A stretch of DNA of 64,000 nucleotides from Acetomicrobium sp. S15 = DSM 107314. Lineage in GTDB: Bacteria; Synergistota; Synergistia; Synergistales; Thermosynergistaceae. This document shows, one piece after another, positions 25,104 through 27,996 of this stretch. The notes below the pieces were generated by a model. That model searched no databases and was not told the DNA's origin. It saw only the letters and a program-made list of their open reading frames with translations. Position 1 is the first letter of the stretch. Each line of letters starts with the position of its first letter. The stretch spans positions 1-64,000 of the forward strand of contig NZ_JADEVE010000415.1 in the NCBI RefSeq assembly GCF_016125955.1, given 5' to 3'. The position numbers and the translations under genes are program-made.

Positions 25104-25574
25104 TCAAGCGAAGGCTCCGCGCCTCATGCGGCGGAGCCTTGCGCTTACTGCCTGCTGCGACATTCCGAGGATGGTCGCAGCCTCTTTTTGGCTATAGCCT
25201 TCCGTCAAAAGCGAAATGAGATATCTGTCTTTTTGGTCGCGAATCAAGCTCTCTGCGAGGAACAGTGCGGCGAGATGCGCGTCGCTGTCGTACGTCAGCG
25301 CTCGCTCGTCTTCCAAGTCGTCTGCCTCTATAGGCACTTCGCTGTGCGCGCCTCTTCTGAGCCGTCTTGCGGCGTCGCGAATTGCCCTGGGCAGGGATTT
25401 CTTCAGGAAAAGCGGCAGAGCATCCCGTCGGCGGCACTTAGGTATAAGCGTTAGGAGCGCTGCGTATCCTTCTTGTGCGAGGTCTTCAGCTTCGGCGCCC
25501 CTTCCGGCATATCGCTTTGCCAGCGACTCTACCAAGGGGCGGTACTGCGTTATGAGCGTGTCGATTTCATCCAT
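25104..25574 (-). CDS. Small sigma-70-like RNA polymerase sigma factor
   Basis: A 156-residue protein with a region-2-like N-terminus (LAKRYAGRGAEAEDLAQEGYAALL) and a region-4-like helix-turn-helix at the C-terminus (YSQKEAATILGMSQQAVSARL). It is as short as ECF or phage-type sigma factors. The ATG at 25574 is chosen; a TTG at 25583 would overlap the upstream stop. It is the last gene of a cassette with an M15 peptidase and YvrJ, DUF2922 and DUF1659 proteins. In Bacillus subtilis yvrJ likewise lies beside the split sigma factor genes sigO/rsoA (from memory), so the association may be functional. Confidence 0.75.
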   Translation of the reverse strand: MDEIDTLITQYRPLVESLAKRYAGRGAEAEDLAQEGYAALLTLIPKCRRRDALPLFLKKSLPRAIRDAARRLRRGAHSEVPIEADDLEDERALTYDSDAHLAALFLAESLIRDQKDRYLISLLTEGYSQKEAATILGMSQQAVSARLRRMRRGAFA

Positions 25575-25579
25575 GAGTT

Positions 25580-25930
25580 TCAACCCTTAGGCCAGACGCC
25601 CAAATGTATAAAGTTCCTGACGCCGTAGAGAATTACCTGGTCGAAGCCCGCTTCACGCGCAAGTTTGCTCACATGCCCTTGATCAGAGGCGGCGCAGACT
25701 ACATCTGCCGCAAACCCCTTCGTGTGGCGGCTTTCCTTTGCACCTCCCACCTCTCGGTTGTGATCCGCGCAGCGGTAACCGCTCGTTATAACTATCGGAT
25801 TGCCCCAAAGTTCCCTCAGGCGCTCCAGCGCCTCCAACAGCATCGGGTGAATTTTAACTGCCCCGCAGCAGCGACATTGGAACTCTTTGAGCTTAAAATG
25901 AGAAGAGAGGCGGATGTCGTTTATGGGCAT
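25580..25930 (-). CDS. M15-family (D-Ala-D-Ala carboxypeptidase-type) peptidase
   Basis: A 116-residue M15/VanY-like zinc peptidase. Metal and catalytic residues are visible as H69 and D76 in SRHTKGFAADVV and H109 in NFIHLGV. The N-terminal part has FKLKEFQCRCCG, a cysteine cluster common in the phage and cassette forms of this peptidase. There is no signal peptide, so release to the wall would need another route. Its stop is adjacent to the sigma factor start, and the YvrJ stop is one base upstream. Confidence 0.88.
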   Translation of the reverse strand: MPINDIRLSSHFKLKEFQCRCCGAVKIHPMLLEALERLRELWGNPIVITSGYRCADHNREVGGAKESRHTKGFAADVVCAASDQGHVSKLAREAGFDQVILYGVRNFIHLGVWPKG

Positions 25931-25931
25931 C

Positions 25932-26081
25932 CTAAAATACCCCCTTGCTGGTTATCGTCATCTGTAAGTCGCGAATCGCCGCGGTGAGCTCCTCTAAGCG
26001 TTTTTCCATCCGCACCAGGAGATACCCGGCTACCGCTACGGCGAAGCCGCTTTGCAAGGCTGCGGATACGAAATCTGCCAT
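25932..26081 (-). CDS. YvrJ family small membrane protein
   Basis: A 49-residue protein: a hydrophobic segment (FAVAVAGYLLVRM) followed by an amphipathic, charged helix (EKRLEELTAAIRDLQ). This is the YvrJ pattern. The ATG at 26081 has AGAGGTGA upstream; an ATG 11 codons earlier is less likely. Function is unknown. The single membrane helix followed by a coiled-coil-like tail resembles a holin or anchor, but that is a guess from size and company. Confidence 0.8.
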   Translation of the reverse strand: MADFVSAALQSGFAVAVAGYLLVRMEKRLEELTAAIRDLQMTITSKGVF

Positions 26082-26160
26082 CTTCGTCACCTCTCTTGTG
26101 TAGGCGCGCGGCAAGTGGTATATAAAAACCGCTCGCCGCGCGCCGTCTATCTACATTTGC

Positions 26161-26361
26161 CTACAGAAGCTCGGTCACTGTGCGGTCCACAATCTCGGCA
26201 CCGGCTATGGAGACCGGCCCGGAGACGAAAACGTCGTTGTCGACTATGGTCTGCATGGCGGTCTCCACCTCCGTGGCGGTGACGTCATCCTTGGGGTAAC
26301 GGAGGGAGAGGATCCACTGGTCGTCATCGGCCGTGTTGAAAATCATGCGCAGCGTCTTCAC
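26161..26361 (-). CDS. DUF2922 family small protein
   Basis: A 66-residue soluble protein with the DUF2922 opening MKTLRMIFNTADD and a C-terminal half ending in VDRTVTELL. It starts at GTG behind GGGAGGTGAT. DUF2922 proteins are known only as small proteins encoded next to DUF1659 and YvrJ, as here. Function unknown. Confidence 0.8.
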   Translation of the reverse strand: MKTLRMIFNTADDDQWILSLRYPKDDVTATEVETAMQTIVDNDVFVSGPVSIAGAEIVDRTVTELL

Positions 26362-26405
26362 TTTATCACCTCCCTATCTTTTGAATTTTGCTTCCTTGGG
26401 CTACA

Positions 26406-26621
26406 CTAACTTACGATGTCGGTGTCGACCTTCTGGATCTCGTGGACCGGATAAGACAAGAGTCCGCCGATCGCCTGAGCTACTGCGTAGGTGGCGTTGG
26501 CATCGGCCGAGGGATCCACGCCGGAGAGCGAAAGCGTTCGCAACTGCGGCCGCCCGAGCGAGTAGGTTCCGATCTGGAGCCTAAGGCTAAGGCGACTGGA
26601 TACGGGAGCGTAACTGGCCAT
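26406..26621 (-). CDS. DUF1659 family small protein
   Basis: A 71-residue soluble protein of DUF1659 type, recognised from the layout ending with YAVAQAIGGLLSYPVHEI and KVDTDIV. It is the first gene of the cassette DUF1659-DUF2922-YvrJ-M15-sigma. The 130 bases between it and the divergent CCA-adding gene should hold the cassette promoter; a TTGACG on the minus strand near 26730 is a candidate -35. Confidence 0.75.
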   Translation of the reverse strand: MASYAPVSSRLSLRLQIGTYSLGRPQLRTLSLSGVDPSADANATYAVAQAIGGLLSYPVHEIQKVDTDIVS

Positions 26622-26757
26622 CTCTTCTTCCCCCTTTCTTAAGGTCTCATTTATAAGAGTGGAAGGAGAAGGTTATGAATACAAATAGTATACATAAATC
26701 ATTATTTGACATTTATTTGTTGTCGTCAAGGGCGCATTTGGAGGGGAGTGGCCGTTG

Positions 26758-27996
26758 ATGGAGCGCATATCGAATACCTTGGCAATCGTCCGGGGGCTGG
26801 AAATAGAGGGATACGAAGCGGCGATAGTGGGTGGGGCTGTCAGGGATCTCTTTCTCGGAAGGCAGCAATTATCGGATGTCGATGTGGCCACGAGTGCGAG
26901 CCTCGAGGCGATCCGATCCCTCTGGGGGGAACGGGTCAAAGTGACGAGGAAGGGACCTCCCTGGACGGCGGTAATCCCCATGGACGGCTTCAATGTAGAG
27001 GTTACCCCCTTTTTGAGTGAAACGCTCGAAGGGGATCTCAAGAGGCGGGATTTCACCGTCAACGCCCTGGCTATGAAGGCGGACGGCAGAGTCATAGATG
27101 TAGTAGATGGGGTAAAAGACCTGTCCAGGCGCATCCTTCGCTTCAATGGAGAGGCGGCTGTGCGTATTCGCGAAGACCCGTTGAGGGCGCTGCGCTTGGC
27201 CAGGTTCGCGGCCGTGCTTCCGGCGTTTGTCGTGGATGAGGCTTCGCTTTCAGCTGCACACGGCTGGCAGGATGCGATGTCGCAGGTGCCGAAGGAGCGC
27301 ATCGGCAAGGAGGTACTCTGCGCGATGCAAGGCGACGCGGTGCGCTTTACGGCTTTCCTCAGAGAGCTCGACCTTGCGAAAACTCTGCTGCCTGGGCTGT
27401 CCGCCGAAACCGAATCGTGCCTGACATATGCTCACATTGCGACGGATAGGGCGGAGGTAAAGGCCGCCTGCATATTGGAGTGCATGGCGAGAGCGAGGAT
27501 ACGAGAGGTGCAAGGGAATGCGGCCTTTGAGGGGTGCCTCGACCATCGCGTTGCTAAGGCTGCCGACCAGATCATGAGTGCCTGGGCCTGGCCGCGTAGG
27601 TTGGCCGACCACATAGCTGGGCTCGTAAAATGGCAGGAGGTAGCGCATTCTGGCCTCTCACCCTGGGTCTTCTTGCGGCTCCTCAAAAGTTTCGGCCGGA
27701 CCTGGCTTGACGATCTCTTCCTTTTGGCTTGGGCAGAGGCTATGGCCGATGGGAAAGACCTCTCTGCCTGGATGAGGAACAGGATAACTGCCGTTTATCT
27801 CGAAGTGAATACCCCCCAGCCGCTCGTTTCGGGGGAAGACGTAATGGAGGTCTTGGGCATAGAAGAAGGCCCCGAGGTGGGGAGGATCCTCGAGGCCATA
27901 GAAAAGGCTCAGGCGGAAGGAAGGATCTGCACCAGGGAGGATGCCATCCGCCTTGCCAGCGCGCTATATAAAAACCCATCACATCAGGATGGTTAG
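26758..27996 (+). CDS. cca: tRNA CCA-adding enzyme/poly(A) polymerase family nucleotidyltransferase
   Basis: A 412-residue class II nucleotidyltransferase. The head has VGGAVRDLFLGRQQLSDVDVA with the metal-binding DVD, followed by RRDFTVNALA and the RRILRF segment for nucleotide recognition. No HD domain is visible at the C-terminus. The ATG at 26758 is taken; a TTG one codon before is the alternative. It adds or repairs the CCA end of tRNA. An A-adding or poly(A) polymerase variant cannot be told apart by eye. Confidence 0.88.
   Translation: MERISNTLAIVRGLEIEGYEAAIVGGAVRDLFLGRQQLSDVDVATSASLEAIRSLWGERVKVTRKGPPWTAVIPMDGFNVEVTPFLSETLEGDLKRRDFTVNALAMKADGRVIDVVDGVKDLSRRILRFNGEAAVRIREDPLRALRLARFAAVLPAFVVDEASLSAAHGWQDAMSQVPKERIGKEVLCAMQGDAVRFTAFLRELDLAKTLLPGLSAETESCLTYAHIATDRAEVKAACILECMARARIREVQGNAAFEGCLDHRVAKAADQIMSAWAWPRRLADHIAGLVKWQEVAHSGLSPWVFLRLLKSFGRTWLDDLFLLAWAEAMADGKDLSAWMRNRITAVYLEVNTPQPLVSGEDVMEVLGIEEGPEVGRILEAIEKAQAEGRICTREDAIRLASALYKNPSHQDG

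Follow-up and report, generated by a model that had tools for sequence, protein, structure and literature searches.

We found that a five-gene cassette in a 64,000-nucleotide stretch of the Acetomicrobium sp. S15 = DSM 107314 genome (contig NZ_JADEVE010000415.1, positions 1 to 64,000; hereafter the window) probably encodes a self-amplifying release module, in which a dedicated sigma factor would drive the expression of a holin-like membrane protein and an endolysin-like cell-wall peptidase. We put the probability of this reading, in which the cassette would work like the UviA-UviB or type 10 systems, at roughly 60%. All five co-oriented genes that the initial annotation had placed at 25104-26621 are present and match their families; they are transcribed on the minus strand from 26621 to 25104, in the order DUF1659, DUF2922, YvrJ, M15 peptidase and sigma factor:

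26652..26685, minus strand: promoter element TTTGTA-N18-CACTCTTATA, the sole perfect match in the genome, kept ahead of sigma-bearing cassettes and the probable target of the cassette's sigma factor.
26406..26621, minus strand: DUF1659 protein, 71 amino acids (Pfam PF07872, E 1.1e-17), with a predicted beta-beta-alpha-beta topology (AlphaFold2, predicted local distance difference test, pLDDT, 84).
26161..26361, minus strand: DUF2922 protein, 66 amino acids, GTG start at 26361 (Pfam PF11148, E 1.9e-23; AlphaFold2 pLDDT 87).
25932..26081, minus strand: YvrJ, a holin-like protein of 49 amino acids when read from the likely ATG at 26081, with one membrane helix (Pfam PF12841, E 1.8e-14; phrog_4898 holin, E 3.6e-4).
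25580..25930, minus strand: M15 peptidase, 116 amino acids, endolysin-like, with zinc motif (Pfam PF08291, Peptidase_M15_3, E 2.5e-27; phrog_894 endolysin, E 4.9e-36).
25104..25574, minus strand: sigma-70-family factor with regions 2 and 4 only (Pfam Sigma70_r2, E 1.6e-14; TIGR02937, E 6.6e-19).

Four of the proteins pass the Pfam cut-offs; the sigma factor does so for region 2, and it also passes on TIGR02937. For YvrJ, the sequence favours the ATG at 26081 over 26114, given a GAGGTG ribosome site, and the sigma factor likely starts at the ATG at 25574, with a TTG at 25583 as the alternative. Because the identical gene order recurs across Synergistota, a chance grouping is excluded.

The cassette appears to have its own promoter. 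Reading the upstream sequences yielded the motif TTTGTA-N18-CACTNTTATA, located at window positions 26652-26685, within the 26.62-26.75 kb gap in which the initial annotation had proposed to look for the sigma factor's promoter, and conserved before sigma-bearing cassettes. A search of 30 whole genomes gave 12 perfect matches, each of which precedes a cassette or, once, a split YvrJ-M15-sigma operon, and additional matches with one mismatch stay at control level; the matches that score 14-15 out of 15 across 700 kb of locus sequence all lie in cassette promoter regions (14/14). Motif scores are higher for cassettes with a linked sigma gene (Mann-Whitney P 2e-5). Among the genomes searched for the sigma factor, counted as independent, the motif is present in 9/9 with the gene and in 0/13 without it, the latter class comprising genomes with no sigma match or only matches at E about 1e-8 to 1e-10. 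Eleven of these 13 show a near-canonical sigma-A promoter instead, of the TTGACA-N17-TATAAT kind. Some loci without a linked sigma gene still have the motif, in full or weakened; six of their genomes (G087, G020, G006, G076, G053 and G046) were searched, and all six carry a sigma homologue elsewhere (E 2.8e-32 to 4e-62). Where the cassette is split, the motif stands before both halves in G076 and G006, including the unlinked M15-sigma operon, and weaker copies occur at both sites in G046 and G053. In f11, four loci without a linked sigma gene (L042, L046, L052 and L090) instead have TTTACTATAGCAAA and an element of the CATCTATATA type in common in their promoter regions.

These patterns suggest that the motif is the promoter read by the cassette's sigma factor. 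Since it is confined to cassettes and tracks the sigma gene, this factor would act mainly, or even exclusively, on the operon that encodes it, in a positive feedback loop. A wider regulon was rejected: a search of the organism's own genome with up to three mismatches returned one perfect match and otherwise background (17 matches versus 11 in the control), and the best secondary match (L256), near the start of a plus-strand gene but oriented on the other strand, has no clear target open reading frame. A near sigma-A-like sequence, TTGACG-N17-AATAAT, lies upstream of the cassette at window positions 26700-26760 and recurs in L033 of this genus; it is possibly a basal promoter that feeds the loop.

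The two products that could open the cell have the features expected of a release module, namely a holin-type small membrane protein and a peptidoglycan hydrolase without a signal peptide. YvrJ has a single membrane helix with a charged tail, and five YvrJ proteins match the holin family phrog_4898 with modest scores (L091, E 1.8e-6); its likeness to the BhlA and TpeE holins is one of topology only, and no BhlA profile match was reported in the Pfam scan of the window. The M15 peptidase retains the H..G.A.D zinc motif. Unrelated phage holins and different hydrolases occupy the same positions at other loci: a YvrJ-less Aerococcus locus encodes Phage_holin_Dp1 and a CHAP enzyme, the YvrJ-less loci L152 and L206 a phrog_13712 holin and L083 a phrog_6384 holin, all from families unrelated to YvrJ, and the hydrolase position, held by M15_3 in Synergistota, is taken elsewhere by Amidase_2, Amidase_3, VanY/M15_4, GH108 or CHAP, with GH108 also in a few Synergistota loci. 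Phage lysis modules typically swap unrelated holins and hydrolases at one operon position. Holin activity of YvrJ and peptidase activity of the M15 protein are predicted, and the view of the initial annotation that this is a regulated cell-wall or release module gains support from the dedicated promoter, the holin-like YvrJ and the swappable wall hydrolases.

The same holin- and endolysin-like parts could suggest a prophage lysis module that has decayed or been domesticated and has no function today, all the more as the neighbours of the GH108 versions in f4/g7 are possibly phage-like. We consider this very improbable, given that the genes and promoter are intact across most of the phylum, mostly in single copy and with chromosomal flanks. 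In the window, no structural phage genes lie nearby, no full prophage surrounds the cassette, and the flanks are ordinary chromosome, with gpsA, a ferredoxin gene and a tRNA nucleotidyltransferase gene pointing away. Neither 50,697 phage records nor two IMG/VR scans gave a match to DUF2922. The phylum-wide distribution, the chromosomal flanks and the lack of relatives among these phages and viral contigs led us to reject a prophage remnant, so that the phage-like element considered in the initial annotation gives way to a conserved chromosomal gene set, though one whose lysis parts look phage-derived. In G087, the cassette is a phage target and not a phage part: an insert of ~39 kb splits yvrJ, leaving the 5' piece by DUF1659-DUF2922 and the 3' piece by the M15 and sigma genes, and PHROG matches to terminase, portal, tape measure and large serine integrase (L038, L249, L257, L258) identify it as a prophage. 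The integrase gene adjoins a yvrJ fragment; a search for the attachment core gave only a 9-base chance match.

The cassette is widespread. DUF2922 was found in 94/121 Synergistota genomes, mostly in single copy, in 148/300 genomes from the phylum to which Bacillus massilionigeriensis belongs and in 27/41 from that of a Caldiserica genome. DUF1659 accompanies it at 132/134 loci and YvrJ at 100/134; in 61 Synergistota genomes, YvrJ matches above the cut-off sit only at cassettes, and the order DUF1659-DUF2922-YvrJ-M15-sigma is common to most sampled Synergistota genera. Variants include two five-gene cassettes in opposite orientation ~8 kb apart, either an inverted duplication or an assembly artefact (L089, G108:C78), a YvrJ-less DUF1659-DUF2922 pair accompanied by another, longer sigma factor in a genome that has DUF2922 three times (L075 and L076, G029), and DUF1659-DUF2922 twice in tandem, followed by M15 and a phage-type holin that replaces YvrJ (L083, G105). 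The linkage of sigma gene and peptidase to the DUF1659-DUF2922-YvrJ trio, which the initial annotation had set as a test of its reading, holds in most sigma-bearing Synergistota, and where it fails there, the motif still precedes the DUF1659-DUF2922 pair and usually the sigma operon as well; it does not extend to Bacillota, whose loci usually lack the sigma gene and often carry a gene for a ComK-like activator in its place.

This exchange of regulators raises the question of whether the cassette belongs to a DNA-uptake programme, with the wall being opened for pili or sibling DNA being released. ComK-like genes adjoin 20/72 non-Synergistota loci and ComF-type genes adjoin seven loci. In B. subtilis, SigO-RsoA starts yvrJ transcription (PMC8103513), which bears out the link made in the initial annotation, and rsoA and sigO are raised 8.7-fold and 3.9-fold, respectively, in competent cells (PMC7317962). 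Of 20 scanned ComK-like proteins, 6 touch the Pfam ComK family (best E 3.1e-6), and one Peribacillus member passes the cut-off. A ComK-family activator is thus linked in some Bacilli, but the ComK match is weak elsewhere, and no such gene was seen with the Synergistota cassette of the window; in the window's genome, the only clear target of the sigma factor is the cassette and not competence genes. We consider competence-linked wall remodelling or DNA release fairly unlikely. The B. subtilis arrangement resembles the cassette in that yvrJ is under an alternative sigma factor (PMC8103513), and differs from it in that SigO-RsoA is a two-subunit sigma factor and that the B. subtilis control gave a match to YvrJ and none to DUF2922. 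Several Geobacillus/Bacillus loci (L092, L091, L096), several of them on plasmids, combine a ComK-like gene, DUF1659, DUF2922, YvrJ and a wall hydrolase with a site-specific integrase.

In a release module, the DUF1659 and DUF2922 proteins would likely be the cargo. Both are predicted to have the same topology, beta-beta-alpha-beta, and a profile comparison (probability 66%, E 5.7e-5, 38 columns) suggests, rather than establishes, their common descent. The proteins are mostly acidic, which argues against simple DNA binding. Neither has a significant relative in sequence and fold searches of the PDB, nor does DUF2922 in a viral fold search, and a full-text literature search for the two names returned a single passing mention. 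The pair might instead regulate or restrain the lysis genes, as it leads the operon, is inseparable at 132/134 loci and is kept where holins and hydrolases are swapped; we think this quite unlikely, since the pair is also kept where linked lysis genes are absent.

Several known systems resemble the proposed module. Clostridial toxins and Bcn5 bacteriocins are encoded with a sigma factor, a holin (for Bcn5 of the one-helix BhlA type) and an endolysin (PMC9527704). The cassette shares with the UviA-UviB-Bcn5 and TcdR/TcdE modules the co-encoding of a small sigma factor, a holin (one-helix BhlA type in UviB), an endolysin and a product without signal peptide (PMC9527704), but its product is two DUF proteins of ~70 amino acids instead of a bacteriocin or toxin, its hydrolase is M15 instead of an amidase, and it is chromosomal phylum-wide. 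Membership of the sigma factor in group 5 (TcdR/UviA), which is characterized by SRQ in region 4.2 and a -35 element TTTACA (PMC4031146), was rejected, as the alignment shows S/T-Q-Q and the motif reads TTTGTA. Similar to type 10 secretion (Serratia ChiW/ChiX), the cassette combines a holin and a wall endopeptidase-type enzyme with cytoplasmic location of an enzyme lacking a signal peptide; in contrast to it, the cassette has its own sigma factor, its proposed cargo in the same operon, a one-helix YvrJ and no spanin-type genes seen in it. In phage lysis cassettes such as XhlA-XhlB-XlyA of PBSX, a small membrane protein, a holin and a hydrolase follow each other in order, as they do at the Aerococcus locus, whereas the cassette lacks phage structural genes and has dedicated sigma or ComK-like control.

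The parallel with type 10 secretion leaves room for a non-lytic variant, in which YvrJ and the peptidase would make a local opening in the wall and DUF1659 and DUF2922 would be exported while the cell survives. The presence of small proteins without signal peptide next to holin-like and wall-peptidase genes, the conserved gene order and the DUF1659/DUF2922 pairing are consistent with such holin-dependent export, and non-lytic holin/endolysin export and one-helix holins have been described in clostridia (PMC9527704). The persistence of the pair without linked holin and hydrolase does not fit it well, and we rate this variant as less likely than not.

For the self-amplifying release module, gene content and conservation, the near one-operon regulon, the co-occurrence of motif and sigma gene and the holin and hydrolase exchanges are read from the genomes themselves, and release or lysis of the cell is proposed by analogy. 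The sigma factor, encoded by the last gene, would guide RNA polymerase to the operon's single promoter and thereby raise its own level, a topology that would give a switch-like response, probably in a minority of cells. The operon would yield the one-helix holin YvrJ and the M15 peptidoglycan peptidase without signal peptide; the holin would, as in the related systems, give the peptidase access to the wall, resulting in local opening or lysis and in release of contents. These would most likely include DUF1659 and DUF2922, probable structural relatives that perhaps act as a pair.

Some observations weigh against this reading. Its main difficulty is that one large genus, g5, and others keep DUF1659-DUF2922 with a sigma-A-like promoter, without linked YvrJ, hydrolase or sigma factor, and the pair should therefore have some activity independent of linked lysis genes. 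Outside Synergistota, about half the loci have no recognised hydrolase or regulator inside 2 kb, and the similarity of YvrJ to holins is modest. As to the promoter, the genome comparisons of sigma gene and motif are uncorrected for shared ancestry, the unlinked sigma gene of G020 has no motif ahead of it, and TTTGTA is separated from the TTATA-like end by 22 bp, a long spacing for a standard -35/-10 pair, which makes the exact promoter elements uncertain.

DUF2922, nearly always beside DUF1659, occurs in about half of the sampled Bacillota-group genomes and in most Synergistota, yet is barely present in the literature searched. The promoter, the one-operon regulon and the holin/endolysin partners turn this pair of uncharacterized proteins into a concrete release hypothesis. 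As a broader and more doubtful extension, Synergistota, Caldiserica and Bacillota may share a programme in which a self-amplifying sigma factor or a ComK-like regulator commits the cell to releasing DUF1659/DUF2922, as a particle or an effector, via a domesticated holin-endolysin pair. If true, the release module would add a widespread non-phage release system, possibly linked to competence.
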